From Leucobacter komagatae (GTDB lineage Bacteria > Actinomycetota > Actinomycetes > Actinomycetales > Microbacteriaceae), in assembly GCF_000834055.1 (NCBI RefSeq), contig NZ_JXSQ01000001.1, positions 62,001-126,000 on the forward strand: 64,000 nt of DNA, written 5' to 3'. Below are positions 20,435 through 38,913 of the stretch, piece after piece. The position numbers and the translations under genes are program-made. Below the pieces are notes generated by a model that was not told where the DNA came from, did no database searches, and was given only the letters and a program-made list of their open reading frames with translations. The first letter of the stretch is position 1. Every line of letters starts with the position of its first letter.

Positions 20435-20890
20435 TTACGGCGCGACGTACAGGGCGATGGTGTCCGCGACGAGTGCTGGCTGTTCGCTGCCCTCGATTTC
20501 GATGGTCGTGCGATTGCCTACCCGCCAGCCCTGACGGCTCGCCTCAGCTGAGACGATCTCGATGCTTGCGCGAACCCGTGAGTTGACACGGACGGGCTGA
20601 AGAAAGCGCACCCGGTCGAGTCCGTAGTTCACGACCATCGTTGCGTTCTCGACGCTCACGAGCCCAGAAGCGAGGCGCGGGATGAGCGAAAGCGTGAGAT
20701 AGCCGTGCGCAATCGTCGCGCCGAACGGGCCGTTAGCAGCCCGCTCGGCGTCGAGGTGGATCCACTGCTCATCGCCAGTCGCTTCGGCGAACGCCGTGAT
20801 CCGCTCTTGATCGATGTCCAGCCACTCGCCGGTCGCCGTGCTGCCAACCAGTTGGGGCAGCTCGGCCGCGGTTGAGACTTTGATGGTCAT
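20435..20890 (-). CDS. MaoC-family (R)-specific enoyl-CoA hydratase
   Basis: 151-residue hot-dog-fold hydratase. The signature ATGDEQWIHLD (37-47) followed by GPFGATIAHGYLTLSLIP contains the catalytic Asp and His of MaoC/PhaJ hydratases, which add water to trans-2-enoyl-CoA to give (R)-3-hydroxyacyl-CoA. It is the last gene of a three-gene minus-strand set, overlapping the SDR gene (ATGA) and preceded by a thiolase. Together these give hydration, oxidation and thiolysis, the second half of a beta-oxidation-type spiral. Confidence 0.9.
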   Translation of the reverse strand: MTIKVSTAAELPQLVGSTATGEWLDIDQERITAFAEATGDEQWIHLDAERAANGPFGATIAHGYLTLSLIPRLASGLVSVENATMVVNYGLDRVRFLQPVRVNSRVRASIEIVSAEASRQGWRVGNRTTIEIEGSEQPALVADTIALYVAP

Positions 20891-21636
20891 GCGCGTGGAC
20901 CTCCCGCCACATAGAGCACCTGTCCGGAGACGAAGCTCGCCTCCTCCGAGCAGAAGAATGCCGCTGCTGCGGCGATGTCTTCCGGCTTGCCTGCTCGGGC
21001 TACGGGGATCTCCGAGACCATGTGGCCGACGAAGTCGTCGAACGGGACGCCCATCCGCTCAGCGGTAGCCTTCGTCATATCCGAGACGATGAATCCCGGG
21101 GCGATGGCATTCGCGGTCACGCCGTACCGGCCGAGTTCGATCGCGAGTGTTTTCGTGAACCCTTGCATGCCGGCTTTTGCCGCGGCGTAGTTTGCCTGGC
21201 CGCGGTTGCCGAGCGCTGAAGTGCTCGAAAGGTTCACGATGCGGCCCCAGTTAGCCTCAACCTGATGCTTCTGCACCTCGCGGCTCATGAGGAAAGCGCC
21301 GCGGAGGTGGACGCCGAGCACCGCGTCCCAGTCGTCCTCGCTCATCTTGAACAGTAGGTTATCGCGGATGATTCCCGCGTTGTTGACGAGGATCGTTGGT
21401 GCGCCGAGCTCAGCGGCGACGCGAGCGACCGCTGCCTCGACCGCTGCGCTGTCCGCGACATTCGCGCCGACAGCGGTGGCCTTGCCGCCTGCGTTGGTGA
21501 TCGCCTCCACGGTGCCTGAGCAGGCTGCCTCGTCGAGGTCGAGCACCGCGACGGCATGGCCGTCTGCTGCGAGGCGGATGGCGGTTGCGGCGCCGATGCC
21601 GCGGGCGGCTCCGGTAACAATTGCAATGCGGGTCAT
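20887..21636 (-). CDS. FabG-like short-chain dehydrogenase/reductase
   Basis: 249-residue SDR. Cofactor site TGAARGIG (8-15), NNAG, and catalytic YxxxK in NYAAAKAG are present, with Ser in NLSSTSA. It is closest in look to 3-oxoacyl-ACP / acetoacetyl-CoA reductases and, between a MaoC hydratase and a thiolase, probably interconverts 3-hydroxyacyl-CoA and 3-oxoacyl-CoA. ATG 21636 is preceded by GAGAGGAC; the frame extends 38 codons upstream but into the 3' end of the thiolase gene. Direction (catabolic or anabolic) cannot be seen. Confidence 0.88.
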   Translation of the reverse strand: MTRIAIVTGAARGIGAATAIRLAADGHAVAVLDLDEAACSGTVEAITNAGGKATAVGANVADSAAVEAAVARVAAELGAPTILVNNAGIIRDNLLFKMSEDDWDAVLGVHLRGAFLMSREVQKHQVEANWGRIVNLSSTSALGNRGQANYAAAKAGMQGFTKTLAIELGRYGVTANAIAPGFIVSDMTKATAERMGVPFDDFVGHMVSEIPVARAGKPEDIAAAAAFFCSEEASFVSGQVLYVAGGPRA

Positions 21637-21691
21637 TAGTGGTGTCCTCTCGGGGGAGTGTCGTTCGCTGTCTTTGATCGCTGGAGTGGGG

Positions 21692-22915
21692 CTACAGGCG
21701 CTCAAGCACCATTGCCATGCCTTGGCCTCCGCCAACGCACATGGTTTCAAGGCCGTAGCGCCCGCCGGTCGCCTGCAACCCGTTGATGAGGGTTGAGGTG
21801 ATGCGCGCCCCTGTCATCCCAAACGGGTGACCGACGGCGATCGCGCCGCCATGCACGTTGAGGCGGTCTTCGTCGATCCCGAGTTCGCGGGCCGACGGGA
21901 TGACCTGCGCGGCGAAGGCCTCGTTGATCTCGACGAGATCAATATCTCCGATGCTGAGCCCGGCGTTGGCGAGTGCGCGCTTGGACGACTCGACCGGACC
22001 AAGCCCCATGATCTCGGGAGAGAGCCCGCTGACGCCTGTGGAGACTACGCGCGCGAGTGGCTGCAGTCCCAGCTCATTCACGACGCGCTCCGACATCACC
22101 ACGAGCGCTGCCGCGCCGTCGTTGAGCGGGCAGCAGTTGCCTGCGGTGACGGTACCATCAGGGCGGAATACGGGATCGAGACCCGCGAGCGCTTCGAGCG
22201 TCACGCCCGGGCGCGGACCGTCGTCGGCGGAGACCACCGTGCCGTCTGCGAGGGTGACCGGGGTGATGTCGCGAGCCCAGAACCCCGAAGCAATCGCTGC
22301 CTCGGCTCGCTGCTGCGAACGCGCTGCGAACGCGTCCTGTTCATCGCGGCTAATTCCCTTGAGCTGGGCGACGTTTTCAGCAGTCTGGCCCATCGCAATG
22401 TAGGCGTCGGGAAGGCTGCCAGCCGCACGCGGGTCCGTCCACGTTGGCGCGCCAGCGTCGGCGCGAGCTGCTGTGCGAGCGACGGCCTCAGCGAAGACGG
22501 GATTCTCGATGTCAGCCCCTGGTGTTGCGTCGGCCATGCCCTGGGTGAAACGGCTCACCATTTCGACCCCTGCCGACACGAAGATGTCGCCCTCTCCGGC
22601 CTTGATAGCGTGGAAGGCCATGCGGGTGCTCTGCAATGAGGATGAGCAGTAGCGGTTGACGGTCGTGCCAGGCACCGTATCGAGGCCGAGCAGGACAGAC
22701 ACTATCCGGGCGACGTTGAAGCCCTGTTCGCCTGCTGGCTGGCCTGTGCCGAGGATGATGTCCTCGATCCTGGTGGGATCTAAGCCGGGGACCTTGTCGA
22801 GTGCCGCTTGCACCATGCGCGCTGCGAGGTCGTCGCCGCGGAGCGATGCCAGCGACCCTTTCCGTGCGCGGCCGATGGGTGAGCGTGCGGTTGAAACGAT
22901 GTATGCCTCTGGCAT
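21692..22915 (-). CDS. acetyl-CoA acyltransferase (thiolase)
   Basis: 407 residues, the usual thiolase length. Nucleophile Cys90 lies in NRYCSSSLQS, His in AVGHPFGMTG and the second Cys in ETMCVGGGQGMA at the C-terminus. It cleaves 3-oxoacyl-CoA with CoA (or condenses acetyl-CoA). First gene of the thiolase-SDR-MaoC set; its upstream region is shared with the divergent QsdR-like regulator, which may control it. Confidence 0.95.
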   Translation of the reverse strand: MPEAYIVSTARSPIGRARKGSLASLRGDDLAARMVQAALDKVPGLDPTRIEDIILGTGQPAGEQGFNVARIVSVLLGLDTVPGTTVNRYCSSSLQSTRMAFHAIKAGEGDIFVSAGVEMVSRFTQGMADATPGADIENPVFAEAVARTAARADAGAPTWTDPRAAGSLPDAYIAMGQTAENVAQLKGISRDEQDAFAARSQQRAEAAIASGFWARDITPVTLADGTVVSADDGPRPGVTLEALAGLDPVFRPDGTVTAGNCCPLNDGAAALVVMSERVVNELGLQPLARVVSTGVSGLSPEIMGLGPVESSKRALANAGLSIGDIDLVEINEAFAAQVIPSARELGIDEDRLNVHGGAIAVGHPFGMTGARITSTLINGLQATGGRYGLETMCVGGGQGMAMVLERL

Positions 22916-23269
22916 CTGGATCTCCTCAGTGAGTGGTGGGGTGGCTTAGCTAAGAGTGGCGCTGCCGGCGGTTCGGCGGAGCGCAGGTGATGACACGTGT
23001 CTGGGCGTTCGAGACGGGGAGAAACGTGTGCTGGCCTGTGGGAGCTGGAGGACGATTCGCGCGAAGCGGGGCTGCGGGGTCGCTGCGCCGAGCGAGCAGG
23101 CGGGCAGAAATTGCCGTTGGGGCATCGCAGACTTGGTGCGCGTCGTTGGGCTGAGGCATCGTCTCTCCGATCATCGGTGATCGTGACCAGTATGCATCAT
23201 ATTTCAGAATGTGCACACTGTTTCGAGAAATGTTGCACCGAGGTGATAGGGGGCGGATAGAGTAAACGA
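22916..23269. promoter_or_regulatory. divergent control region, thiolase operon / TetR regulator
   Basis: 354 bp with no convincing gene. It is AT-rich for this genome near 23190-23235, where a perfect TGTGCACA palindrome (23210-23217) is flanked by ATTTC (23201-23205) and GAAAT (23227-23231), a plausible regulator site. TAGAGT (23258-23263) 6 nt before the regulator's ATG looks like its -10. Confidence 0.45.
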
Positions 23270-23905
23270 ATGAGCACAACAGTAGGCGCGCCGATCGCCC
23301 AGGTTGGCCTCGTTGCCGCACCGTCACTGTTGTCGGAGCGTATCGAGGCCCGGCCCGAGGTCATGCGCGCTTTTCAGAGCGCGCGCGAGGCATTCATTGC
23401 TGGAAATCGCATTAGCATGGGTGAGCTAGCGGCAGACCTCGGGGTGGACCGCACCTCGCTCTTTCGCTGGGTTGGGAACCGTGACGCGCTTTTGGGTGAG
23501 GTGCTCTGGTCGCTGGCCGTCCCAACGTTTGTGCAGGCAGAACAGGCATCGAGTCATCTCTCAGGTGCGCCGCGCCTCGTCGCGATCCTCACGGACTTTG
23601 TCGACGGTCTCATCAACGCGACGTACTTCCGCACCTTCCTGCGGCGCGAACCGGCGCGTGCGCTGCGGCTCCTCACCACGAAGGAGAGCCCGATCCAGCG
23701 GCGCTATCTCGCGACTGTCGAGTGGCTCGTTCGGCGGGAGCTCGGCGAGAGTCCGCTCGGCGGAGCGATTGACCCGGCAGGGCTTGCGTACCTGCTGTCG
23801 CGTGTCTCGGAGTCGTTCTCGTACGCCGACCTCATCTCCGGGGACGAGCCAAGCGTTGAGCGCGCGAGCGTCGCGTTCCGCTTGTTGTTGCGCGTCGACG
23901 CGTAG
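23270..23905 (+). CDS. TetR-family regulator, QsdR-like
   Basis: 211 residues. The helix-turn-helix is ISMGELAADLGVDRTSLFRWVGNRDALLGEVLW (about 45-77), preceded by a helix RPEVMRAFQSAREAFIAG. This N-terminal form, with FRWVG in place of the common YYHFG/YRYF, resembles QsdR of Rhodococcus, a regulator of gamma-lactone/gamma-hydroxy-acid breakdown; the match is from memory and needs a profile search. The start at ATG 23270 has TAGAGT 6 nt before it (leaderless). Divergent from the thiolase operon and just upstream of the kinase/acyl-CoA dehydrogenase operon, it could control either. Confidence 0.75.
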   Translation: MSTTVGAPIAQVGLVAAPSLLSERIEARPEVMRAFQSAREAFIAGNRISMGELAADLGVDRTSLFRWVGNRDALLGEVLWSLAVPTFVQAEQASSHLSGAPRLVAILTDFVDGLINATYFRTFLRREPARALRLLTTKESPIQRRYLATVEWLVRRELGESPLGGAIDPAGLAYLLSRVSESFSYADLISGDEPSVERASVAFRLLLRVDA

Positions 23906-24017
23906 CGAGAGCGCACCGGCCCGCACGTAGCGCCGTCCCGCCCTGACCTGGGTGGGCGGTGTGCCGTCGCGCGGCCCGCAGGGGCGGGCACGCGTCTGGG
24001 CGAAGACAGCTCGCGAA

Positions 24018-24037
24018 CATACCGACCATCCGGTATG
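24018..24037. promoter_or_regulatory. regulon palindrome A (CATACCG-N6-CGGTATG)
   Basis: Perfect 7-bp arms, 24018-24024 and 24031-24037, with spacer ACCATC. It ends 43 bases before the start of the APH/acyl-CoA dehydrogenase/ligase operon. The same arms and spacing occur at 35668-35687 and 35758-35777, so this is a shared TetR-type operator. Confidence 0.8.
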
Positions 24038-24080: not shown

Positions 24081-25103
24081 ATGCCTGAGATTCCAGGTCT
24101 AGACCTTGTTGCGCTGACCGCGTGGTTGAGCGAAACACATCCCGAGCTTGCCCTCGGTCCACTCAGCGCCACGGTGATTGCCGGTGGACGCTCGAACCTT
24201 ACATACGCTGTTCAGGGGGCGAAGCTCCCGCTGATTCTGCGGCGACCCCCGCTCGGCCACGTGCTGTCGAGCGCCCACGACATGGGGCGTGAGCACCGAG
24301 TCATTTCTGCTTTGGCAGGAACGGCGATCCCTGTTCCCCGCGCGATCGACCTCGTTGACGACACGGGAGGGGCGATCACCGGGACGCCATTCTTCCTCAT
24401 GGAGAAGGCTCCGGGCGAGGTTGTGCGGTCGCCACAGCAGAACGCGGCCTACACTCGTGAAGAGCTGCGCGGGCTGAGTTTTGAACTCATCCACCATCTC
24501 GCAGCGCTGCACTCCGTAGACGTCGAAGCGGTCGGCCTCACGACATTCGGCAAACCTGACGGCTACCTCGCGAGGCAACTCGCGACCTGGCGCAGGCAGC
24601 TCGACGCCTCGCGTTCACGGGAAACCCCGGCGCTCGACCGGTTGCAGGCCGCGCTCGACGAAGGCGTGCCGGAGACGGTGCGCACGGGGATCGTGCACGG
24701 CGACTACCGCCTCGACAACGCGCTCGTTGAGGGGAAGCCGCCGCGCATCTCAGCAATTCTTGACTGGGAGATGGCGACGCTCGGGGATCCGCTCGTGGAT
24801 CTCGGCATTTTTGCCCTGTACTGGGACATCAGCAAGCTCCCGCACCGTGGCGCAATCGCGAGTGCGGTCGACCCGGCAGCTGGCTACCCGGAGTTCGCCG
24901 AACTCGCCGAATACTACGCAACCCAATCTGGCATCACACTGCCAGACCTCAGCTGGTACCGCGCGTTCGCCGCGTACAAGCTCGCCGTGATCCTCGAGGG
25001 GATCCACTACCGCTATCAGGCCGGCGACACCGTCGGCGAAGGATTTGACCGGATAGGTGAGCTCGTAGGGCCACTTGCCGAGAACGGATTGAAGGTGCTC
25101 TGA
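24081..25103 (+). CDS. APH-fold phosphotransferase associated with acyl-CoA dehydrogenase
   Basis: 340-residue protein-kinase-like (aminoglycoside phosphotransferase family) protein. Catalytic loop IVHGDYRLDNALV and the magnesium segment DWEMATLGDPLVDLG are intact, with the nucleotide-binding start AGGRSNLTYAV and LPLILRRPP. Homologues fused or adjacent to acyl-CoA dehydrogenases (ACAD10/11; LvaA of Pseudomonas) phosphorylate the hydroxyl of 4-hydroxyacyl-CoA. The next gene is exactly such a dehydrogenase, overlapping as TGATG, so that role is likely rather than antibiotic resistance. The ATG at 24081 follows GGAAGACGG; the frame is open further upstream but crosses operator A. Confidence 0.85.
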   Translation: MPEIPGLDLVALTAWLSETHPELALGPLSATVIAGGRSNLTYAVQGAKLPLILRRPPLGHVLSSAHDMGREHRVISALAGTAIPVPRAIDLVDDTGGAITGTPFFLMEKAPGEVVRSPQQNAAYTREELRGLSFELIHHLAALHSVDVEAVGLTTFGKPDGYLARQLATWRRQLDASRSRETPALDRLQAALDEGVPETVRTGIVHGDYRLDNALVEGKPPRISAILDWEMATLGDPLVDLGIFALYWDISKLPHRGAIASAVDPAAGYPEFAELAEYYATQSGITLPDLSWYRAFAAYKLAVILEGIHYRYQAGDTVGEGFDRIGELVGPLAENGLKVL

Positions 25104-26317
25104 TGGACTTCGCATTCGACGAAAAAACACTCGAACTCACGGCGAAGGTGCGTGAGTTTCTCGATGAGCGGGTGATCCCCTCCGAGCCTGTGCTCGAGGA
25201 ACAGCTCGCCTCGGACCCCGACAACTGGGGCACGCAGCCGATCGTGCGCGAGCTCCAGGCTGAGGCTCGCGAGCGGGGCCTCTGGAACCTGTTCCTGCCC
25301 GGCGACCCAGCCGAGACCGGTGCCGCCGGGCTCACAAACCTGCAGTACGCAGCGGTGGCTGAGCTCACAGGGTGGAGCCCGCGGCTCGCGCCAGCGGCCA
25401 TGAACTGTGCCGCGCCAGACACCGGAAACATGGAGGTGCTCAACGACTTCGGCACCCCAGAGCAGAAGGAACGGTGGCTCCAGCCACTGCTCCGCTCGGA
25501 GATCCGCTCCGCGTTTTGCATGACCGAGCCCGACGTCGCCTCGAGCGACGCGACGAACATCGGCACACTCATCAGGCGCGACGGTGACGACTACGTCATC
25601 ACCGGCCGCAAGTGGTGGTCAACGGGCGCGATGAACCCCGAAGCAGAGCTGCTCATCGTCATGGGCAAGACGGACCCCGAGGCCGACCGCCACAGGCAGC
25701 AGTCCATGATCATCGTGCCGCGTGATACCCCCGGTGTTGAGGTCGTCCGCCCGCTCACCGTGTTCGGCTACAACGACAGGGATCACGGCGGCCACGCTGA
25801 GGTCAGCTTCGACGAGGTGCGCGTTCCCGCAAGTAACCTCATCGGCGCGGAGGGCGACGGTTTCGCGATCGCCCAAGCGCGCCTCGGTCCCGGCCGCATC
25901 CACCACTGCATGCGTGCGCTCGGAATGGGGGAGCGAGCACTCGCCCTCGCCATCGAGCGTGCGAACTCGCGGCACGCGTTTGGCAAGTCGCTCTCGGAGC
26001 AGGGCGTGATTCGCGAGTGGATCGCTGAGGCACGGATCCAGCTCGACGCGCTGCGGCTGCTTGTCTTCAAAACTGCGTGGCTCATGGACACCGTCGGGAA
26101 CCGAGCTGCGATGACCGAGATTCAATCGATCAAGATTGCCGTACCGAGAGCGGTCGGGGACATCCTCGATCGGGCGATCCAGGTATTCGGCGCGGCAGGC
26201 GTCTCGGACGACACACCGCTCGCTGGCCTGTATGCGGGGGTTCGCACTTTGCGGATCGCCGACGGCCCAGACGAGGTGCACCTCAACAGTCTCGGCAGGG
26301 CCCAGCTGAGAAAGTAG
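25103..26317 (+). CDS. acyl-CoA dehydrogenase, ACAD10/11-type
   Basis: 404-residue flavoprotein. FAD/substrate motifs are CMTEPDVASSDATNI (about 139-153) and the FAD segment GRKWWSTGA; the C-terminus has QVFGAAGVSDDTPLA. The start FDEKTLELTAKVREFLDERVIPSE is typical of the subfamily that partners an APH-type kinase. In the ACAD10/11 and LvaC scheme, phosphate is removed from 4-phosphoacyl-CoA to yield an enoyl-CoA that enters beta-oxidation. Translationally coupled to the kinase gene and followed 37 bp later by an acyl-CoA synthetase. Ordinary dehydrogenation of an acyl-CoA is the alternative. Confidence 0.9.
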   Translation: MDFAFDEKTLELTAKVREFLDERVIPSEPVLEEQLASDPDNWGTQPIVRELQAEARERGLWNLFLPGDPAETGAAGLTNLQYAAVAELTGWSPRLAPAAMNCAAPDTGNMEVLNDFGTPEQKERWLQPLLRSEIRSAFCMTEPDVASSDATNIGTLIRRDGDDYVITGRKWWSTGAMNPEAELLIVMGKTDPEADRHRQQSMIIVPRDTPGVEVVRPLTVFGYNDRDHGGHAEVSFDEVRVPASNLIGAEGDGFAIAQARLGPGRIHHCMRALGMGERALALAIERANSRHAFGKSLSEQGVIREWIAEARIQLDALRLLVFKTAWLMDTVGNRAAMTEIQSIKIAVPRAVGDILDRAIQVFGAAGVSDDTPLAGLYAGVRTLRIADGPDEVHLNSLGRAQLRK

Positions 26318-26354
26318 CCCCTCAGAAACCGTCAACATGTCAAAGGAGACAGCG

Positions 26355-27931
26355 ATGGCACACCCGCACGATCCAGCAGTAGACGGGAGAGGTTTCACGA
26401 CTCTCTCGGTCGCGAGCATCCTCAGCGAGTCGGCGAAAAGACACGCTGACCGACCCGCGCTCTTCTACAACGATGAGGCGATTACCTACCGCGAGCTATG
26501 GGAGCAAACCCGAGCGTATGCCGGCGCGCTGCGTGCGAGGGGGATCGGGCGAGGCGATCGCGTTGCGATGATGATCCCGAATGTCCCGGACTTCCCCCGG
26601 GTGTATTACGCGGTGCTCGCGCTCGGGGCAATTGTCGTGCCGATCCACCTGCTCCTCAAATCCGAAGAGATCGCCGTGGCCCTGCAGGATGCAGGGGCGG
26701 ATCTCTTCGTCGCCTCGGCGACGTCGCTCGCCGAGGCTGCCCCAGCGGCCGCGGAGACCGGCGTGCCGCTGCTGACGGTGCTGCTGCCAGCCGACGCTCC
26801 TGGTGGGATCCCGCGCCTCGAAGCCGAGGCTGCCGCGGCCGAACCGATCACGCGACTCGAACCCACTGCGCCGCTCGACGCTGCGACGATCCTGTTCACG
26901 AGCGGTACGACGGGAACGCCAAAGGGCGCGGTCGGAAGCCACCTGTCGATCATCGAGCAGGTGCACTCCGTGCTCATCGATGGCATCGGGGTCTCGAACG
27001 AAGACGTGACCTTCGGCGGGCTGCCGCTGTTTCACACGTTCGGACAGACCTCCGTGCTGAACATGGCGTTCCGTGCTGGCAGCGCGGTGATTCTCATGCC
27101 GCGCTTCGATGGCGACGAAGCGCTTGCGCTCATGGTGAAGCACCGCGCTACCGTGTTTGTTGGGGTCCCAACGATGTACGTCGGCCTCGTCGAAGCGGCC
27201 CGCCGTTCCGACGAACGCCCGCCGCTGCGGTTCGCGAACTCCGGCGGTGCCGCCCTGCCGGTCGCGCTGCTCGATGCGTTCGAGCAGGCGTACGGGGTGC
27301 CACCCCACGAGGGCTACGGGCTCACGGAGACCGCGCCCACCGTAACCGTGAACAGTTTCGGCAAGCCGACCGTTCCCGGCACGGTCGGCGAGACCCTGTG
27401 GGGAGTCGAGGTTGCGCTCGCCAATCCCGACGTGGAAGACCGCATCGAGCTCTGCGAGGGTGATGATGAGCTTGGCGAGATCATCGTGCGCGGGCACAAC
27501 GTGTTCAAGGGATACGTCGGCCGCGAGGAGGCGACGCGCGAGGCAATCGTCGACGGGTGGTTCCGCACGGGCGATCTCGGGACCTACGCCGACGGGATCC
27601 TCACTGTTGTTGATCGGAAGAAAGACATGATCCTCCGCTCTGGCTACAACGTGTACCCGACGGAGGTCGAAGCGGTGCTTGCGAGGCACCCCAAGGTTGC
27701 CGCGTCCGCCGTCTTCGGTGTCGCCGACGAGGTGCGCGGACAGGAGATCCATGCGGCAGTGCTCCCCAGCGCTGGCGTTGAGATCGACCTGACGAGATCA
27801 TCGAGTTCGCGAAAGAACACGTCGCTGCGTACAAGTACCCGCGGGTCGTGCACATCGTGACGGACTTCCCGCTCGGTGCGAGCGGCAAGATTCTCAAGCG
27901 CGAGCTGCAGCGGGTCTATACCCCCGCGTAG
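26355..27931 (+). CDS. acyl-CoA synthetase (AMP-forming), frameshifted near the C-terminus
   Basis: Activates a carboxylic acid to its CoA thioester. The N-terminal domain is intact: AMP-binding loop FTSGTTGTPKGA, EGYGLTETAPTV, and the hinge region GWFRTGDLG ... VDRKKDMILRSGYNVYP. After VEID the frame runs into an unrelated tail ending at 27860. In another frame the expected C-terminus continues as EIIEFAKEHVAAYKYPR ... GASGKILKREL, stopping at 27931 and carrying the catalytic lysine. Restoring one G at 27791 (CTGACGAG to CTGGACGAG) gives an intact 525-residue enzyme. So either a real inactivating frameshift or a sequencing indel. ATG 26355 has AAAGGAG upstream; ATG 26337 has none. Confidence 0.88.
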
Positions 27932-27946: not shown

Positions 27947-27992
27947 ACACGAGAGGGGGTTCCGGGTATCTGCCCGGAACCCCCTCTCGTGT
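27947..27992. terminator. strong bidirectional terminator hairpin
   Basis: Perfect 20-bp arms (27947-27966 and 27973-27992) around loop TATCTG, between the convergent ends of the acyl-CoA synthetase gene and the substrate-binding protein gene. No long T-run, but stability is very high and it can serve both strands. Confidence 0.85.
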
Positions 27993-30785: not shown

Positions 30786-30817
30786 GGTGGTCACCTCATT
30801 TTCTCGTTGTCGTAAGG

Positions 30818-30836
30818 GTGTGTGTGTGTGTGTGTG
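30818..30836. repeat. (GT)9G dinucleotide run
   Basis: Nineteen bases of alternating G and T, 33-51 bases upstream of the start of binding-protein copy 2 (read as CA on the coding strand). Uncommon in this genome and prone to slippage. Confidence 0.8.
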
Positions 30837-30881
30837 CTCGAGGCGGGGGAGTTCGGCGTGCCTTCGACGCACGATCGTTCC

Positions 30882-32153
30882 TCACCCGGGGATGCCGTTC
30901 GGCACGAAGGGCACGGGATCGATCTTCGTCCTGCTCACGGTGTCTCCGGCTGTCGTATACGCGACTCCGATGAAATCCTGGATTTGGTCTTGGACGAGTG
31001 AGACGCCGAGCGTGAAGTAGGAGCCGTGGTTGTCTGGCGCGTATGAGAGCGGTGCGATGCCGTTTCCCTTGAGCTTTCCTGAGTTGATCGCTTCCACGAT
31101 CGATTCCCGAGTGGGCTGCTCGCCGGCAGCCGCGAGCGCTTCGACGAAGAGGTAGGCCGCACTCATCCCGAAGACAACGTTGCCGTTGAACTGGGCGCTG
31201 TCGTTGTAGTCGTCATTGATCTCTCTGAAGAGCTCGATCCACTCACTGTCGCCAGCCGCGGAGGGAAGATAGTTCACACCGACGAGCCCCTCGGTGAGAT
31301 CCGAGTCTGCGCCGAGTATGTCGACGAGCGTTGCGTGGTCGTTTCCAGCCGAGGTAACGAACCACTGCGGCGACCAGCCGATTCGGGCGGCGGATCCCAA
31401 AGCGAGCGCCGTATACGGGGTGAGCGACGCGAGAATGTTGACTTCGCAGCCCGCGGTCTGCATCGCACCGACCTGGGCGGTGAGATCGGGGTTGGACGTC
31501 GCGTACTGCACGGTGTGGGCAATTCCGTCCTCCCCGAGGACGAGCTTCACGCCATCGAGGATCGATTCCCCGAGGTCATCGTCTTGCCCGAGCACGCACA
31601 CGGTTGCACCTGGGTTCTCGTCGACCGCGTATTGGGCAAGTGCCGCGCCCTCGGCAATATAACTGGCGATGAGGAGGAACGTGTAGGGATATTTGTCCGG
31701 CTGGTTGAGTAGCGTCGAGCCGGATGCGACGAAGAGATCGGGTACTTCGTTTTCGTTGATGTAGTCGACGACTGAAGCGTGGGTCGGCGTGCCGTGGCCG
31801 TTGAAGATGGCGAAGACTTCGTCTTCCTGGACGAGCTCCCTGACGACGCGTTGGGTGTTCGCGGGGTTGTAGGCGTCGTCTTTGATGATGTACTCAATGG
31901 TGCGACCGTGAACACCTCCGCTGTCGTTCACATAGTCGAAATACGCGCGCGCGGCCGAAGAGATTACGGTGTATCCGGGAGCAGCAGGGCCAGTGAGGGC
32001 GGTGTGAGTGCCGATCTTCACGACGTCGTCGGTGACACCGGGCGTCGCCGCATCGTCGGTGGTTGCCGGTGTGCTGCAGCCTGCGAGGAGCAGGCCGAAA
32101 GCAGCCGTCGCTGCGAGAAGCGTGCGTTGGGGGCGATATCGTCTTGAAACCAT
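30882..32153 (-). CDS. ABC transporter substrate-binding lipoprotein, LivJ type (copy 3)
   Basis: 423 residues. Lipobox LAGC near residue 25, then KIGTHTALTGPAAPGYTVI and GGVHGRTIEYIIKDDAYNP. It is the paralogue closest to the permease genes, only 9 bp after livM-like, and has the ribosome site AGGAGG. In the ligand region it has SASGSTLLNQPDKYP-like changes relative to copies 1 and 2 (STLLNQP), suggesting a different or shifted specificity. Confidence 0.88.
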   Translation of the reverse strand: MVSRRYRPQRTLLAATAAFGLLLAGCSTPATTDDAATPGVTDDVVKIGTHTALTGPAAPGYTVISSAARAYFDYVNDSGGVHGRTIEYIIKDDAYNPANTQRVVRELVQEDEVFAIFNGHGTPTHASVVDYINENEVPDLFVASGSTLLNQPDKYPYTFLLIASYIAEGAALAQYAVDENPGATVCVLGQDDDLGESILDGVKLVLGEDGIAHTVQYATSNPDLTAQVGAMQTAGCEVNILASLTPYTALALGSAARIGWSPQWFVTSAGNDHATLVDILGADSDLTEGLVGVNYLPSAAGDSEWIELFREINDDYNDSAQFNGNVVFGMSAAYLFVEALAAAGEQPTRESIVEAINSGKLKGNGIAPLSYAPDNHGSYFTLGVSLVQDQIQDFIGVAYTTAGDTVSRTKIDPVPFVPNGIPG

Positions 32154-32162: not shown

Positions 32163-33248
32163 CTATGTTGCGGAGATGTCCCTGCTCCGCTGTTTTCGTT
32201 TGGGTTGCTGCGGGCTGACCGTTGCGTTCCTCGTCCCTCGCTTGGGGAGCAGGTCGACAAGTCCGCCAGGGCGCACGAGGATCGTCACCGTGAGCAGCGC
32301 ACCGAAGACGAGTACTGGCAGGTTGCCTGTGAGACGCTGCGTGAGATCCGCCGAGAGCGAGAACTGGGAGGTGCCCCAAGTGATGAGCCACGGCAGCATC
32401 ACGACGAGCACGGAGCCAAGCGCCGCTCCGCCGATGCTGCCAAGTCCCCCCAAGACAACGGCCACCACGAGCAGCAGCGAGAACGGGAGCGTGTACGCGC
32501 CAGGGCTCACTGACTGGGTGATGAAGCAGAGCAATGCTCCGCCAGCACCTGCTGAGACGGCGCTCACGATAAAGGCACTGACCTTTACCCTGCCTGCCGG
32601 AATGCCGTTGAGGCGTGCGGCGGTTTCGTCGTCTCGCACCGCGCGCATCCTCAGTCCGAAGGATCCCTCGCGCAGCACTGCGAGCCAGGTGACGAGCACT
32701 CCGGCGACGAGGACTGCCACCCACGCGTGCCACTGCTCAGTGGCCAGCAGGCTGCGGAGCGGATCGGGAACACCTTGGTAGGGGCTCGGTAGCCCCTGAT
32801 CGCCTCCGAGCGCCTTGAACGTCGCTGCCACCGCTGGCACCGCCACAACGAGGGCCAGCGTGATCCCGGCAAGGTACGGGCCGTGGAGCCTGGCCGCTGC
32901 GAGTCCGAGCAACAGTCCGAGCACCCCGGCGACGAGCATGGCTGCAAGGAGCGCGATGAGGAACCGCGGGAGCCCTCCGATGTCGGCGGCAGCGAGCGCG
33001 TTCGCCGTGAGGGCGTATCCGTACCCGCCTGAGGCCATGAGCGCGGCATGCCCGAGAGAGAGCTGACCGCTCTGCCCGATGAGGAGTGTGAGTCCGGCAG
33101 CCACACAGAAGTAGGCTGCGATCGTCGCAAACTGGAAATTCCGGTACGGGTCGAGAGCAAACGTCGCTGCGATAGCGAGCACGGTGAGGATCGCACCGAA
33201 AAGAATGATGCGGCTGTTACCGCGCAGTGAGGGCAATACGCGGTTCAT
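32163..33248 (-). CDS. branched-chain amino acid-type ABC permease, LivM family
   Basis: 361 residues, about ten membrane segments. The family loop QSGQLSLGHAALMASGGYGYAL (shortened here to its core LSLGHAALMASG) and the EAA-type region GMRMRAVRDDETAARLNGI, which contacts the ATPases, are clear (sequence reads LRMRAVRDDETAARLNG). ATG 33248 overlaps the livH-like stop (ATGA). With LivH, LivF and LivG it forms a complete importer fed by three binding proteins. Confidence 0.9.
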   Translation of the reverse strand: MNRVLPSLRGNSRIILFGAILTVLAIAATFALDPYRNFQFATIAAYFCVAAGLTLLIGQSGQLSLGHAALMASGGYGYALTANALAAADIGGLPRFLIALLAAMLVAGVLGLLLGLAAARLHGPYLAGITLALVVAVPAVAATFKALGGDQGLPSPYQGVPDPLRSLLATEQWHAWVAVLVAGVLVTWLAVLREGSFGLRMRAVRDDETAARLNGIPAGRVKVSAFIVSAVSAGAGGALLCFITQSVSPGAYTLPFSLLLVVAVVLGGLGSIGGAALGSVLVVMLPWLITWGTSQFSLSADLTQRLTGNLPVLVFGALLTVTILVRPGGLVDLLPKRGTRNATVSPQQPKRKQRSRDISAT

Positions 33249-34123
33249 GCGCTGCGCTCCTTCCGAGTAGAGAACACCCCTCCTGGCCTAACGACCAGGA
33301 TGAGAACGAGCAGCACGAGCACTCCGATCGGCGCGACTGTCGCCCCGAGATATCCCGTGAGCAAGCTCATCGCCACCCCCACGATTAGGCCGCCGACGAG
33401 TGCCCCGAGGGGGGAATCTAGGCCGCCGATCACGGCAACTGCGAACGCGTACACGAAGAGCATGTCTGTCGCGTGGGGGTTCAACCCGAGTTCAGTGGGG
33501 ACGAGCAGAATCGCCGCGAGCGCCGCGACCGCGCTCGAGAGCATCCAGCCGACAGTGGTCATTCGGGAAACCCTGACCCCGAGCAGCCTGGATACGGCTG
33601 GCGCAAACGCCGACGCGCGAAGCTGCAGTCCGAGCGACGTGCGCGTAAACACGATGGCAAGACCGATCATCACGACGAGGGTCACCCCAATGGTGAAGAG
33701 GTCGTTTGGTGAGAGTAAGGGCACGCCGCCGACGACGATCGCGCTGCGGTCGAACGGTGCTGGCATGGCCCGGTATTGCGCTCCGAAGAATATCCCGAGC
33801 AGCGACTGCAGCACCATCACTATCCCTATCGCTGCGAGTACGCCGGTGAGATGCGAGGACTGCGGCGCGAAGCGCATCACTCCGCGCTCGACGATGAAGC
33901 CCATGAGCGCCCCGGCGAGGATCCCGGCAGCGAATCCCGTGAAGTAACTCCCTGTCGCGCCAGTGACGGCGAATGCAACGTAGGTCGCGACGAGCGCCAT
34001 GGCGCCCTGCGCAAAGTTGATGATTCGGGTAGCCCGCCAGATCAACACGAGCGAGAGCGCGAACAGTGCAAAGATCGCTCCGCGCGCGAGTCCGGTTGCG
34101 AAAAGGAACGTAAATCTATCCAT
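33245..34123 (-). CDS. branched-chain amino acid-type ABC permease, LivH family
   Basis: 292 residues, about eight membrane segments. Typical LivH start: LARGAIFALFALSLVLIWRAT, then INFAQGAMALVATYVAF. The coupling segment LGLQLRASAFAPAVSRLLG is present. Overlaps the LivF-like gene as TGATG and the LivM-like gene as ATGA, so stoichiometric translation is expected. Confidence 0.9.
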   Translation of the reverse strand: MDRFTFLFATGLARGAIFALFALSLVLIWRATRIINFAQGAMALVATYVAFAVTGATGSYFTGFAAGILAGALMGFIVERGVMRFAPQSSHLTGVLAAIGIVMVLQSLLGIFFGAQYRAMPAPFDRSAIVVGGVPLLSPNDLFTIGVTLVVMIGLAIVFTRTSLGLQLRASAFAPAVSRLLGVRVSRMTTVGWMLSSAVAALAAILLVPTELGLNPHATDMLFVYAFAVAVIGGLDSPLGALVGGLIVGVAMSLLTGYLGATVAPIGVLVLLVLILVVRPGGVFSTRKERSA

Positions 34124-34857
34124 CAGAACCCCAGGTATGCGTGTCGCAGGGCGGCATCGTCCGCGAGCGTGGATGCCTCGGCGTCCACAACCACCCTGCC
34201 GAGATTGAGTACGATGCCTCGATCGGCTATCGAGAGTGCTCCCGTGACGTTTTGTTCGGCAAGGAGCACCGTCAAACCGCGCTCCTTGGCCGTTGCGCGG
34301 AGAGTGCGCATGATCTGAACGACTACGAGCGGGGCCAACCCAAGTGACGGCTCATCGAGCGCTATGAGCCGGGGCTCCGCTATGAGTGCCCGTCCAAGGG
34401 CGAGCATCTGGCGCTCGCCGCCGGAAAGCTGATGTCCATCGGCATGCTTGCGGCGCTCGAGCGGTTCGAACATCTCGTAGATCCCTCGAATGGCGCGCTC
34501 GCGGGCATGCCCCTGGTGCCGCCAGAGCGCTCCAAGCCGCAGATTTTCCTCGACCGTGAGTTCCGCGACGATGCTCTGGCCATCGGGAACGAGCGCCAGG
34601 CCCAGTCGCGCGCGGTCTTCGGTGCGAAGTTGCCGGAGGTCGGTGCCGTCGAAAATCAACTTGCCGTCAGACACCGGCACTCGGCCGGTTAACGCGCCGA
34701 GGAGCGTTGTCTTGCCTGCACCGTTCGCGCCGAGAAGGGCGACAACCTCGCCAGGGACAAGGTCCATGTTCACTCCATGGAGCACGGGCCCGCCACCGTA
34801 GTCAACGGTGAGGTCCGAGATGGTGAGCGCGGCTCCGAGCTGTGTCTCTGTGTTCAT
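34123..34857 (-). CDS. ABC transporter ATPase, LivF family
   Basis: 244 residues. Walker A GANGAGKTT, signature LSGGERQMLALGRAL, Walker B LIALDEPSLGLAP and the switch His in LLAEQNVTGAL region (Asn-rich variant AEQN, normal for LivF). It powers the liv-type importer with LivG. The start overlaps the LivG-like stop. Confidence 0.92.
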   Translation of the reverse strand: MNTETQLGAALTISDLTVDYGGGPVLHGVNMDLVPGEVVALLGANGAGKTTLLGALTGRVPVSDGKLIFDGTDLRQLRTEDRARLGLALVPDGQSIVAELTVEENLRLGALWRHQGHARERAIRGIYEMFEPLERRKHADGHQLSGGERQMLALGRALIAEPRLIALDEPSLGLAPLVVVQIMRTLRATAKERGLTVLLAEQNVTGALSIADRGIVLNLGRVVVDAEASTLADDAALRHAYLGF

Positions 34858-35627
34858 GCGTGTGCTCCGGTCCGTGGGCCGCTGCCGTTTCCGTTGGTTG
34901 CTGCGACGCCGAGGTAGGCCTCCTCAACTCGCGGATCCGCGCGTATCTCGTCAGGTGTTCCGCGCGCGATGACCCTGCCGAAGTCGAGAACGACGATGCG
35001 GTCGGCGAGGCCCATGACGAAGTCGACGTGATGCTCAACGAGAAGAACGGACCTGCCGCTTGATGCAATGTCCCTGACCGTGTCGCTGAGTGAGTCGATG
35101 TCCTCGACGCTGAGACCGCCGGCTGGCTCGTCGAGGAGGAGTAGCGACGGATCGTTTGCTAAAGCGCGGGCAAGCGCGACCCGTTTCCTGTCCGGGAAGG
35201 GGAGTTCGCCGACCGGGCGGGTGGCGATGCTGCTCAGACCGAGTCGCTCGAGCTGAGCGCCGACGAGTTCGTCCGCGTTTCTCCGGTAGGCGACCGGGAC
35301 CCGCACGTTCTCAGCCACGGTCATGGTCGGGAACAGGCCGAGCCCCTGTAACGTCCGCGAAAGGCCAAGCCGCGCGAGCTGCGGGGTCTTCCGCGGAACG
35401 GTGCTGCCGTCGATCCTGATGGAGCCCGAACTCCGCAGGAGACTGCACACGGCATTGAAAACCGTCGTCTTCCCCGCGCCGTTTGGGCCGATCAGGGCGA
35501 CAACTTCGCTCGGTCTGACGTCGAAAGTGACGTCATCGAGCGCGGTCAGCCCACCAAACTTTACGGTGAGCTGCTCCACCTCGAGTCGGGGAGTGGTCTG
35601 TGCTGGGTTGGATAGTTGAGACTTCAT
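34854..35627 (-). CDS. ABC transporter ATPase, LivG family
   Basis: 257 residues, first gene of the transporter operon. Walker A GPNGAGKTT, Walker B LLLLDEPAGGL. The signature region reads LPFPDRKRVALARAL, a degenerate form normal for LivG, and the switch is LLVEHHVDFV. ATG 35627 is chosen over GTG 35633 because GAAGAGG stands 5 nt before it. Operator B lies 41-60 bases upstream, so the whole seven-gene operon should respond to the TetR regulator. Confidence 0.91.
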   Translation of the reverse strand: MKSQLSNPAQTTPRLEVEQLTVKFGGLTALDDVTFDVRPSEVVALIGPNGAGKTTVFNAVCSLLRSSGSIRIDGSTVPRKTPQLARLGLSRTLQGLGLFPTMTVAENVRVPVAYRRNADELVGAQLERLGLSSIATRPVGELPFPDRKRVALARALANDPSLLLLDEPAGGLSVEDIDSLSDTVRDIASSGRSVLLVEHHVDFVMGLADRIVVLDFGRVIARGTPDEIRADPRVEEAYLGVAATNGNGSGPRTGAHA

Positions 35628-35667
35628 CGGCACCTCTTCGTGTCGTTCGTGGCATCACAGTACATCA

Positions 35668-35687
35668 AATACCGACCGGACGGTATG
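35668..35687. promoter_or_regulatory. regulon palindrome B (AATACCG-N6-CGGTATG)
   Basis: Six-bp perfect inner arms (ATACCG 35669-35674, CGGTAT 35681-35686) with spacer ACCGGA, 41 bases upstream of the LivG-like start on the minus strand. Same arms and spacing as boxes A and C. Confidence 0.82.
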
Positions 35688-35757: not shown

Positions 35758-35777
35758 CATACCGACTGGACGGTATG
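35758..35777. promoter_or_regulatory. regulon palindrome C (CATACCG-N6-CGGTATG)
   Basis: Perfect 7-bp arms (35758-35764, 35771-35777), spacer ACTGGA, ending 19 bases before the SDR start. Boxes B and C are 90 bp apart centre to centre in the divergent region between the transporter operon and the SDR/TetR operon. Confidence 0.82.
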
Positions 35778-35796: not shown

Positions 35797-36540
35797 ATGA
35801 CTACATCTCGTTTCGCTGAAACGGTCACCATTGTTACCGGCGCGAGCCGAGGAATCGGGCTCGCAATCGCTCAGCGACTTGTCGCAGAGGGTGGATCCGT
35901 GATTATCACCGGCCGCAATCAGGAGGCGCTCGACGAGGCCGTCGCTGGGCTTGGGCCGAATGCAACCGGCGTGGCCGGGCGCGCAGACGACACGGAGCAC
36001 CGCGCCGCGGTATTTGCGCACGTTGCAGAACGGCACGGGCGGCTTGACCACCTCGTGAACAACGCCGGCATCAACCCTGTGTATGGGCCGATCGTCGACG
36101 TAGACGCGGGTGCTGCTCGCAAGATTCTCGACGTCAACGTCATCGCATCACTGGACTGGAGCCGGGACGCGGTCGCCGCGGGGCTTCGCTCGAGCATCGT
36201 GAATATTTCGTCAGCGTCCGCGCTTGGAGCGAGCCCGGGGATCGCCTTCTACGGGATCTCGAAGGCGGCACTGATGAACCTGACGGTGCAGCTCGCCTTC
36301 GAGCTTGCGCCCAAGATCCGCGTGAATGCGGTCGCGCCGGCGGTCGTGAAGACGGCGTTCGCGCGCGCCCTGTATGAGGGGCAGGAAGCAGAAGTGTCTG
36401 CAGCCTACCCGCTCGGCAGGCTTGGCGAGCCCGAGGACATCGCCGGTCCCGTTGCGTTCCTGCTGTCAGCTGACGCGGCGTGGATCACCGGCCAGACCGT
36501 TCCGATCGATGGCGGCGGCAGCATCCGACCCATCCTCTAA
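35797..36540 (+). CDS. short-chain dehydrogenase/reductase
   Basis: 247-residue SDR. TGASRGIG (15-22), NNAG, Ser in NISSASA and YxxxK in FYGISKAA are all present. The substrate is unknown. As first gene of the operon behind operator C and part of the kinase/dehydrogenase regulon, a 4-oxo/4-hydroxyacyl-CoA or hydroxy-acid oxidoreductase (compare LvaD of the levulinate pathway) is a reasonable guess. ATG 35797 follows AAGGAGG. Confidence 0.87.
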   Translation: MTTSRFAETVTIVTGASRGIGLAIAQRLVAEGGSVIITGRNQEALDEAVAGLGPNATGVAGRADDTEHRAAVFAHVAERHGRLDHLVNNAGINPVYGPIVDVDAGAARKILDVNVIASLDWSRDAVAAGLRSSIVNISSASALGASPGIAFYGISKAALMNLTVQLAFELAPKIRVNAVAPAVVKTAFARALYEGQEAEVSAAYPLGRLGEPEDIAGPVAFLLSADAAWITGQTVPIDGGGSIRPIL

Positions 36541-36591
36541 CCAGGACCAGTGCCAGCCGGGGTTCTCGGCGGGCGTGAGCAGTAGGGAAGA

Positions 36592-37236
36592 ATGGCTCGA
36601 ATGAAGCAATCTCAGGTAGCCACAGACGTCATTCGTGCATCGGTTGAGCTTTTCGCGCTACGCGGCTACGCGAACACCAGCGTTCAAGACATTGTCGCTC
36701 GAGCGGGTGTCACGAAGGGTGCGATGTACCACTACTTCGAGTCCAAAGACGATCTGCTGTTCGGCATCTACGACTCGTTGCTCTCTCTCCAAAAGGACAA
36801 CCTCGACGCAATCATCGAGGCCGGTGGTGATGTCGACGACGTGCTTCGAGCCGCCTGCGTCGACGTACTCGAGACCTCAATCGAATACCTCGCAGAGGGC
36901 ACCGTGTTCTTTCGAAGCATGGACATGCTCTCTGAGCCGAGGCGGAAGGAAGTTGTGCGCCGCCGTCGCGCGTACAACGATGAGTTCGCTGCCCTCGTGA
37001 GGCGGGGGCAGCGCGAGGGGAAGTACCGAGACGACATTCCTCTCGCAGTTCTCATCGCCCACTTCTTCAGCGACGTTCACTATCTCTCCTACTGGTACTC
37101 GGAAGAGAAACCGGAGGACAGGACGCTGACAGCAGTGCATATCACCGACCTCTTTATGTCTAGCCTAAGGAGAGCAGATGTCGAATACACAAGCGCCGGA
37201 GACGATGCAAGCTTGGCGCGTCACAACGCTCGGTGA
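36592..37236 (+). CDS. TetR-family regulator of the CATACCG regulon (predicted)
   Basis: 214 residues. The DNA-binding domain is standard TetR: VIRASVELFALRGYANTS, VQDIVARAGVTKGAMYHYFESKDDLLFGIY (about 38-67), followed by a helical ligand domain. It lies 51 bp after the SDR behind operator C, so it should control its own operon, and it is the best candidate to bind boxes A, B and C. Its last 59 bp overlap the next gene, which is unusual and gives a C-terminal tail that may not be conserved. Start may instead be ATG 36601, better spaced from AGGGAAG. Confidence 0.88.
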   Translation: MARMKQSQVATDVIRASVELFALRGYANTSVQDIVARAGVTKGAMYHYFESKDDLLFGIYDSLLSLQKDNLDAIIEAGGDVDDVLRAACVDVLETSIEYLAEGTVFFRSMDMLSEPRRKEVVRRRRAYNDEFAALVRRGQREGKYRDDIPLAVLIAHFFSDVHYLSYWYSEEKPEDRTLTAVHITDLFMSSLRRADVEYTSAGDDASLARHNAR

Positions 37237-38182
37237 GCCAGCAGAGGCGCTGACACTCACCACCGTCCCCACTCCCCGCCCGAGCGCAGGGGAGGTGCTC
37301 GTCCGCGTAGGCGCGGTCGCAGCGAACTTCCCTGACGTGTTGCTCGCGCGCGGTGAGTACCAAGTCAAACCTGAGCTTCCGTTTACCCCCGGGGTCGAGT
37401 GCAGCGCAACCGTGGCCGAGCTGGGTGAGGGCGTGACCGGACTGAGCGTCGGGGAACGCATCGTGGTGCCGATGATTGGAGTGCTTGCTGAGTACGCGGC
37501 CGTTCCGGCAAACGCGGTGCGGCGGATCCCAGAGTCGCTCGACAACGTGCGGGCGGCTGGGCTCATGATCGCCTATCAGACGGCATGGTTTGCGCTTCAT
37601 CGCAGGGCCCAGATTCAGTCGGGAGAGTGGCTACTCGTGCACGCCGCAGCGGGCGGAGTCGGCGCGGCGGCCGTGCAGCTCGGAGTCGCAGCTGGCGCGA
37701 GAGTGATCGGAGTCGTTGGCTCCGAGGCAAAGGCGCAAGTCGTCCGTGACGCCGGGGCAGAACACGTCGTGCTGCGAAGCGACGATGTTGCGGCAGAGGT
37801 GAAGCGAATCACGGAGGGGCGAGGCGCAAATGTCGCATTCGACCCGGTTGGCGGGGCGGCGTTCGAAGCCTCTACCCGGTCGATCGCGTTCGAGGGGCGC
37901 ATCGTGGTCATCGGGTTCGCGAGCGGAACAATTCCGGAGCTCGCAATGAACCGGCCACTCATCAAGAACTACGCGGTCCTCGGCCTCTACTGGGGGCTCT
38001 ACCAGGAGCGTGCCCCAGAGCTCGTGGCCGAGGCGCACGAGGAACTCATCAAGCTGTTTGAGGCGGGAAAAATCTCGCCCGTCGTTGACCACACGGTCCC
38101 GTTCGCCGAGGCGCCAGCAGCACTCACCGCGCTCGCGACCGGAAATACCGTTGGTCGTGTCGTTGTGGAGGTCGCGCCATGA
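37178..38182 (+). CDS. NADPH:quinone oxidoreductase-like MDR enzyme
   Basis: 334-residue medium-chain dehydrogenase without zinc ligands. GroES-like N-domain, then nucleotide site HAAAGGVGAAAVQLGVAAGARVIG and late motif NVAFDPVGG. Members reduce quinones or 2-enoyl substrates with NADPH. AAGGAG stands 5 nt before ATG 37178, inside the 3' end of the TetR gene. The stop overlaps the next SDR (ATGA). Possibly a reductase for unsaturated acyl intermediates of the island's pathway. Confidence 0.87.
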   Translation: MSNTQAPETMQAWRVTTLGEPAEALTLTTVPTPRPSAGEVLVRVGAVAANFPDVLLARGEYQVKPELPFTPGVECSATVAELGEGVTGLSVGERIVVPMIGVLAEYAAVPANAVRRIPESLDNVRAAGLMIAYQTAWFALHRRAQIQSGEWLLVHAAAGGVGAAAVQLGVAAGARVIGVVGSEAKAQVVRDAGAEHVVLRSDDVAAEVKRITEGRGANVAFDPVGGAAFEASTRSIAFEGRIVVIGFASGTIPELAMNRPLIKNYAVLGLYWGLYQERAPELVAEAHEELIKLFEAGKISPVVDHTVPFAEAPAALTALATGNTVGRVVVEVAP

Positions 38183-38913
38183 TCACCTTGGAAGGCAAAG
38201 TCGTACTGGTCACTGGCGGCGCGCGCGGCATCGGCGCCGCGTATTCGCGGGCGCTGCACGCTGCCGGCGCACGCGTCATGCTCGCTGACGTGCTCACGGA
38301 CGAGGGCGAGGCGCTCGCAGCAGAACTCGGTGACGGCGCACGGTTCGTTGCGCTCGATGTGCGGGAGGAAGCCGAGTGGGCATCCGCTGTGGACGCTACC
38401 GTTGCGGCCTTCGGTTCGCTCGACGTGCTCGTGAACAACGCGGGTATCGCCAACGCGGCGCCGATCGAGCATTTCACGCTCGAGAAGTGGAATGCCGTGA
38501 TCGCCGTGAACCTCACCGGAGTGTTCCTTGGTTGCCGCGCCGTTGTGCCGGTGATGAAAGGACAGGGCGGCGGATCAATTATCAACATTTCCTCCGTCGA
38601 GGGGATGCGCGGTAGCCCCGGACTGCACGGTTACACGGCTGCGAAATTCGGCGTACGCGGCATGTCTGCGTCACTCGCTGTAGAGCTCGGCCCGGCTGGT
38701 ATTCGGGTGAACTCAGTCCACCCCGGGTACATCACCACCGCTATGTCGGCGCGGATCGACCCCGAGAAGCTCGATATTCCGCTTGGGCGGCCGGGCGTTC
38801 CCGAAGACCTGGTGGGAACGATCGTGTTTCTCGCAAGCGAAGCCTCATCGTTTACGAGCGGGGCTGAGTTCGTGGTCGACGGCGGCATGATCGCGGGAAT
38901 CCCGCACCGCTAG
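38179..38913 (+). CDS. short-chain dehydrogenase/reductase
   Basis: 244-residue SDR: TGGARGIG (12-19), NNAG, Ser in NISSVEG and YxxxK in GYTAAKFG. It resembles 3-alpha(20-beta)-hydroxysteroid-dehydrogenase-type and 3-oxoacyl reductase SDRs; substrate unknown. Last gene of the SDR-TetR-MDR-SDR operon, closed by the hairpin at 38926-38968. Confidence 0.87.
   Translation: MITLEGKVVLVTGGARGIGAAYSRALHAAGARVMLADVLTDEGEALAAELGDGARFVALDVREEAEWASAVDATVAAFGSLDVLVNNAGIANAAPIEHFTLEKWNAVIAVNLTGVFLGCRAVVPVMKGQGGGSIINISSVEGMRGSPGLHGYTAAKFGVRGMSASLAVELGPAGIRVNSVHPGYITTAMSARIDPEKLDIPLGRPGVPEDLVGTIVFLASEASSFTSGAEFVVDGGMIAGIPHR

Follow-up and report, generated by a model that had tools for sequence, protein, structure and literature searches.

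We investigated a gene cluster in Leucobacter komagatae (GCF_000834055.1) that joins an APH-fold kinase and an ACAD10/11-type dehydrogenase to an ABC importer and two TetR regulators. The DNA analyzed, referred to as the window, comprises 64,000 nucleotides of contig NZ_JXSQ01000001.1 (positions 62,001 to 126,000), and the cluster occupies window positions 20435-38913. We consider it probable that the cluster is an accessory catabolic island for acids bearing a hydroxyl (or oxo) group at C4, most likely gamma-lactone-derived acids or mid-chain hydroxy fatty acids. We are strongly confident of the 4-hydroxyacyl-CoA chemistry class and of the shared operator, moderately confident of a lactone or hydroxy-fatty substrate, and weakly confident of any single compound. 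From its genes, the cluster appears to work like the ACAD10/11 and LvaA/LvaC route, yet it is neither an lva nor a qsd operon. A single switch linking ACAD10/11-type chemistry to its own importer is unusual. The cluster consists of a minus-strand run of thiolase, FabG and MaoC genes (22915 down to 20435); a divergent run starting with a QsdR-family TetR gene (23270), the kinase (24081), the dehydrogenase (25103) and an AMP-forming ligase (26337); a leftward importer run convergent with the ligase (35633 to 28002) that encodes two ATPases, two permeases and three binding lipoproteins; and, divergent from the importer, SDR1, a second TetR gene, a quinone-oxidoreductase-like gene (QOR) and SDR2 (35797-38913). 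Pfam and NCBIfam matches and the open reading frame list confirmed that the genes named in the original prediction exist where it had placed them, apart from several starts that we revised.

The APH-fold kinase (24081..25103, plus strand; PF01636, 165.3 bits) was predicted to be a 4-hydroxyacyl-CoA kinase of the LvaA or ACAD11 N-terminal type. Among PDB chains its best matches formed a group of four, two of them ACAD11, at E values of 3e-55 to 2.4e-45, with the remaining chains at 3.9e-15 or worse; ACAD11 chain 8v3v scored 161.8 bits (E 1.8e-46), and 9fsg, the first chain beyond the best four, scored 58.7 bits. The kinase itself was correctly recognized in the original prediction, but its start is the ATG at 24081 rather than the listed reading-frame start at 23952. 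The operator at 24019 therefore lies upstream of the kinase, whereas a start at 23952 would place it inside the gene. The adjacent dehydrogenase (25103..26317, plus strand) matched ACAD11 at 453 bits (8v3u, E 6.4e-135) and 4hr3 at 409 bits (E 1.7e-121), and the next chain at 139 bits (E 1.8e-39). Judged by these best matches, neither protein groups with an unrelated subfamily, the outcome that the original prediction had named as speaking against it.

Residue comparisons pointed to the same chemistry, and the class proposed originally, a 4-hydroxyacyl-CoA kinase with its dehydrogenase, is borne out by complete sets of kinase and ACAD10/11-type residues. In mouse ACAD11, as described and numbered in the portions of PMC12440821 used here, R626, H634 and R637 contact the 4-phospho group, R631 positions the acyl group, and D753 is catalytic. 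The window dehydrogenase carries equivalents of all five, as do 55/55 clustered relatives, and the catalytic H, D, N, D and E positions of the kinase, including the D220 and N225 equivalents, are conserved in 75/75 clustered relatives; because these 55 dehydrogenases and 75 kinases were grouped by similarity, such conservation is partly a product of selection. As a control, we compared the other ACADs of the same genome (8 matches, 7 fetched and 6 aligned, L008 giving no alignment). R626, H634 and R637 were found in 0/6, and D753 in 0/5 for which that stretch was covered (it was uncovered in L006). R631 was present in 6/6 and is general to ACADs. By analogy with ACAD11, the dehydrogenase would turn a 4-phosphoacyl-CoA into a 2-enoyl-CoA. 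Mammalian ACAD10/ACAD11, in the parts of PMC12440821 and PMC11342911 consulted, likewise combine an APH-fold kinase and an ACAD with the same phosphate-binding and catalytic residues, but the window has two separate adjacent genes, set in a cluster with an importer and regulators. The same portions date the assignment of ACAD10/11 chemistry to 2024-2025 and cover, on the bacterial side, the lva pair of Pseudomonas and a single Burkholderia pair that had been tested.

A second line of evidence came from putative operators. In the whole genome, ATACCG-N6-CGGTAT has three exact sites, located before the kinase (24019..24036), the importer operon (35669..35686) and the SDR1 operon (35759..35776). 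Four more sites with one mismatch lie elsewhere in the genome, and the backwards control gave one. Allowing up to 3 mismatches on both strands, the window holds 9 matches, whereas 100 shuffles averaged 2.46 and never reached 9. We also scanned 80 relatives' loci (1.53 Mb), the best 80 of at least 579 confirmed kinase relatives; counts from this set thus describe close relatives, and the loci, being related, are not independent. At spacing 6 they contained 69 sites carrying one mismatch or none, versus 0 to 3 sites at every other spacing between 0 and 11 and none for three control motifs. A TetR_C_24 family gene was found in 22/80 loci, 20 of which also have the motif. The motif occurred without this gene in 14 loci, five of which (L017, L018, L026, L027 and L071) end inside the operon expected to hold it. 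From this co-occurrence, the TetR_C_24 regulator of the window (36592..37236, plus strand; PF17932) is the probable owner of the operator. Taken together, the exact sites, the shuffle and control-motif statistics, and the relatives' loci uphold the earlier proposal of an operator common to the kinase set and the importer.

An importer of the same family was present in 17/80 loci (Microbacterium, 6; Agromyces, 4; Cellulomonas, 4; Demequina, Isoptericola and Actinoplanes, 1 each), as well as in four congener regions fetched for it, and was not seen within the fetched flank of the other 63 loci. Of these 17 loci, 16 have the operator before the kinase and 15 before LivG, with none in Actinoplanes and with LivG at the locus end in L020; operator and importer thus occur together in 16 loci of the first five genera. 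In the Actinoplanes locus, a single strand carries the importer, SDR1, another SDR, the kinase and the ACAD in succession. These data bear on the possibility that the importer and kinase/ACAD operons are mere neighbors in a general lipid-catabolism region under a broad acyl-CoA-sensing TetR. The TetR_C_24 regulator does match the FadR model weakly (44.7 bits, cutoff 200), behind an equally subthreshold match to ScbR (58.9 bits, cutoff 150), and operator-type sites are also found ahead of kinases where the importer is absent from the locus. But the only three exact operators of the genome all lie inside the cluster, and importer and kinase are linked in five genera with the operator and in Actinoplanes with a different gene order, so that we regard mere proximity as quite improbable.

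The importer has the composition of LIV/HAAT-type systems, with a LivG-type ATPase (34854..35633; PF00005, PF12399), a LivF-type ATPase (34123..34857; PF00005; NF008626, 215 bits, below the cutoff of 441), LivH-type (33245..34123) and LivM-type (32163..33248) permeases, both matching PF02653 (BPD_transp_2), and PF13458 binding proteins, all on the minus strand. It differs from such systems by three tandem binding lipoproteins: protein 1 (30882..32153; PF13458; 65% identical to protein 2), protein 2 (29493..30785) and protein 3 (28002..29291; PF13458, with a lipobox). All three had been recognized before, and their likely starts are corrected here to 32153, 30785 and 29291. Two tandem binding proteins were found in each of four congeners and one in relatives' loci; the set of three at 28002-32153 probably reflects a lineage-specific tandem duplication. 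A 12-bp perfect inverted repeat at 27954..27985 probably acts as a terminator where the ligase and importer operons converge.

We compared the binding proteins with structures as a guide to the substrate. The best PDB match of their profile was 4n03 from Thermomonospora curvata (E 2.5e-26). This structure, titled as a fatty acid ABC transporter substrate-binding protein, also took the first row in VIA-align, with 22% identity over the aligned part and a Z score tied with that of a valine-bound protein; Foldseek ranked it third, and a single-sequence search ranked it second. Several aromatic-acid binders among rows 7-16 of the structure comparison would suit a cluster that degrades a ring- or branch-bearing acid (a terpenoid, alicyclic compound or steroid fragment) with a 4-hydroxyacyl-CoA as merely one intermediate. 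So would SDR2 (38179..38913, plus strand), whose best NCBIfam match is trans-4-hydroxycyclohexanecarboxylate dehydrogenase (NF053702, 250.7 bits, below the cutoff of 400), and the quinone-oxidoreductase-like MDR enzyme (37178..38182, plus strand; PF00107; TIGR02824, 225 bits, below the cutoff of 296.8), along with a Zn alcohol dehydrogenase in relatives. Yet the Pfam matches of the cluster genes include no oxygenase, ring-opening or crotonase family, and FabG, MaoC and thiolase make up a plain beta-oxidation set. We therefore consider a ring- or branch-bearing substrate unlikely, and return to 4-hydroxy acids of the gamma-lactone or mid-chain hydroxy-fatty type.

Levulinate was weighed against them. 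In the lva operon, lvaB lies between lvaA and lvaC, the operon groups an SDR and a CoA ligase with the kinase and dehydrogenase, and its regulator LvaR is of the sigma-54 type. In the window, the kinase stop and the dehydrogenase start overlap at base 25103 with no gene between them, and both cluster regulators are TetR proteins. On these two grounds we ruled out membership in an lva operon, the system with which the original prediction had compared the cluster. DUF6285, considered as a possible LvaB family through an unconfirmed link, is absent from the genome. Compared by description with lva of Pseudomonas putida and Burkholderia LvaA/LvaC (as given in the consulted portions of PMC12440821 and PMC11342911), the window has the kinase and LvaC-type dehydrogenase in common but has TetR regulators, a LIV-type ABC importer and its own MaoC, FabG and thiolase. 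The last three are a MaoC-type enoyl-CoA hydratase (20435..20890; PF01575, 82.9 bits), a FabG-like SDR that is probably an (R)-3-hydroxyacyl-CoA dehydrogenase (20887..21636; TIGR01830, 251.3 bits, below the cutoff of 297.75) and a beta-ketoacyl-CoA thiolase (21692..22915; NF005890, 732 bits, above the cutoff of 580), all on the minus strand. FabG had been placed correctly, and a codon model moves its start to near 21636.

The lva chemistry could still serve levulinate or 4-hydroxyvalerate here with the ABC importer as transporter, since the kinase and ACAD are of the LvaA/LvaC kind, a ligase and SDRs are present, and MaoC, FabG and thiolase would be enough for one cycle on a C5 acid in a window that lacks ACAD2, a further acyl-CoA dehydrogenase. 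Gene order and regulators weigh against this, as does the fatty-acid binder ranking first by profile and VIA-align. Moreover, ACAD2 is kept in 17/80 loci and in congener L102, and relatives' loci add a hotdog thioesterase and the Zn alcohol dehydrogenase. A levulinate or 4-hydroxyvalerate pathway thus seems to us a poor prospect, and we favor 4-hydroxy acids of the gamma-lactone or mid-chain hydroxy-fatty type above levulinate as the substrate.

The other regulator of the cluster lies at 23270..23905 (plus strand). The original prediction had likened it to QsdR, and we confirmed that it belongs to the QsdR family: it matches PF18598 at 126.2 bits, compared with 82.9 bits for the QsdR segment from the 4ZA6 alignment, and R. 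erythropolis QsdR (4ZA6) at E 1.2e-13. In the parts of PMC6262395 used here, the qsd operon of Rhodococcus erythropolis has qsdR divergent from the lactonase gene qsdA, with the ligase gene qsdC. The window resembles it in a regulator with the same C-terminal Pfam domain and an acyl-CoA ligase nearby. It differs in that the cluster genes have no Pfam match to a lactonase family and in its divergent partner, the thiolase-FabG-MaoC run, so a qsd operon, the other system invoked at the outset, was likewise not found. Of the 20 loci with a QsdR-type gene (16 relatives' loci and 4 congeners), 16 have repeats of the form TGCAnCAT ... ATGnTGCA (at most 2 mismatches) upstream of it, and the 84 loci scanned gave 6 matches elsewhere. 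The window has a 2-mismatch copy at 23193, together with another half site that extends to 23237, and we propose 23193..23237 as the candidate operator of this regulator.

The phosphotriesterase family includes lactonases, and three other actinobacterial clusters, on a Tsukamurella plasmid and in genomes G328 and G402, combine a kinase, ACAD11 and a phosphotriesterase-family gene (5.6 kb from ACAD11 in G328 and 3.4 kb in G402). These clusters support, indirectly, the link to gamma-lactones that had been proposed. Among 396 genomes of the phylum, 21 had a phosphotriesterase homologue at E <= 1e-60, 20 of them with ACAD11 at E <= 1e-80. The two genes lay within 6 kb in 2/21, where rough arithmetic gives about 0.2 close pairs expected by chance. 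They were 17 kb apart without a shared cluster in G280 and not near each other in the other 18, one of which has no ACAD match; the phosphotriesterase match in G349 has an internal stop. Phosphotriesterase beside ACAD11 is therefore a minority arrangement. Among the 123 plasmid records that hold an ACAD11 relative, six neighborhoods were read (Tsukamurella L136; Rhodococcus L137, L139 and L140; Streptomyces L138 and L141), and an annotated phosphotriesterase was seen only in L136. No phosphotriesterase-type relative was found in the called open reading frames of the 80 loci, where other lactonase types were not sought. A phosphotriesterase gene of the window's own genome was rejected as the lactonase for being distant, and no oleate hydratase was found in that genome.

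The Tsukamurella tyrosinosolvens plasmid NZ_LR134470.1 (L136) has eight homologues in common with the window at 43-76% identity (thiolase, SDR1, QOR, FabG, MaoC, kinase, ACAD11 and ligase). Unlike the window, it also encodes a phosphotriesterase-family protein, along with a HAD phosphatase and an MFS transporter, and the ABC importer and QsdR-type regulator were not found there. HAD-family phosphatase genes lie beside a kinase and an ACAD11-type gene at L136:9134-9739 and also at L142:1224-1886 and L143:8860-9576, where the call rests on 37% and 44% identity with the protein from Tsukamurella; HAD phosphatase, kinase and ACAD are the three domain types of mammalian ACAD10. In G328 (L142:1979-5608), a ribose-type importer with an RbsB-like binding protein and an AraG/RbsA-like ATPase, both below cutoff, sits inside the phosphotriesterase-kinase-ACAD11 cluster, so that a different kind of importer accompanies this chemistry there. 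On the Rhodococcus sp. BH4 plasmid (L139:10985-25045), the kinase and ACAD11 are accompanied by an MBL-fold hydrolase and by nearby genes annotated as an ABC transporter. On a Streptomyces plasmid (L138:10853-23460), kinase and ACAD11 adjoin AfsA-related and ketoacyl-ACP synthase genes, and this cluster is perhaps used in gamma-butyrolactone-type metabolism.

In the pathway that we propose, the acid would be taken up by the LIV-type importer with its lipoprotein binding proteins and converted to its CoA ester by the AMP-forming ligase, an assignment that follows from the family seen and would extend to this substrate. An SDR may set the oxo/hydroxyl state or stereochemistry at C4; SDR1 of the cluster (35797..36540, plus strand; NF005559, 261 bits, above the cutoff of 215) is DHRS4-like (DHRS4 3o4r, E 6.2e-50). 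Judging from mouse ACAD11 and the residues observed, the kinase would then phosphorylate the C4 hydroxyl and the ACAD10/11-type enzyme would eliminate the phosphate to give a 2-enoyl-CoA, after which MaoC, the FabG-like SDR and thiolase, whose families are seen, could finish beta-oxidation in this presumed order via an (R)-hydroxyacyl route. The TetR_C_24 protein would repress the kinase, importer and SDR operons via the three common sites, and we propose that the QsdR-type regulator uses its own repeats to control both its own gene and the divergent thiolase-FabG-MaoC operon. Searches of the open-licence literature found no paper joining "lva operon" with "ABC transporter" and none joining ACAD11, phosphotransferase and actinobacteria. 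We suggest, tentatively, that this is the first importer-coupled ACAD10/11-type pathway, in which gamma-lactone or hydroxy-fatty-acid carbon would be captured by a dedicated LIV-type importer with binding proteins for lipid acids, a single TetR regulon would cover both uptake and 4-phosphoacyl-CoA chemistry, and a relative of QsdR would sense the lactone or the acid. The conserved operons that join this chemistry to a dedicated importer, together with the separate clusters that pair it with phosphotriesterase-family genes, would provide testable natural substrates for the bacterial ACAD10/11 family. They would also provide importers and sensors that recognize lactones and hydroxy fatty acids, as well as bacterial gene sets (kinase and ACAD, plus a HAD phosphatase in Tsukamurella) that resemble the mammalian ACAD10 domain set.

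Within the genus, 7/54 genomes, this one included, had an ACAD match at E <= 1e-100. Four of the six others carry the cluster in the same order as the window from thiolase to SDR2, with two binding proteins rather than three; one of the four also has ACAD2, and the MaoC ends are cut or outside the fetched stretch. Of the remaining two, G038 has its match on a contig of 3.7 kb, and the gene set of G034 differs. The distance from the hisA-like gene (18764) to infC (41953) is 20.8-22.4 kb in this genome and the four carriers, a span that in the window also includes azlC and an aldo-keto reductase, versus 2.5-6.4 kb in 14/14 non-carriers examined, of 47 genomes without a match. The cluster is thus an island at one fixed place, between the hisA-like/sseB and infC genes.

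The ligase gene (26337..27860, plus strand; PF00501, 282 bits) breaks frame near 27790 in this assembly, leaving its final ~40 residues, including the C-terminal lysine motif, in another frame; it is in frame in the four congeners, and the frameshift may be either a sequencing error or a mutation. From ~23150 onward, the gap between the thiolase and QsdR-type genes (22916-23269) aligns with the region around the ACAD2 start of congener L102, and near 23155 it retains a start-like CAT and a stretch resembling a ribosome site. The gap is probably, from this alignment, the remnant of a deleted acyl-CoA dehydrogenase gene.

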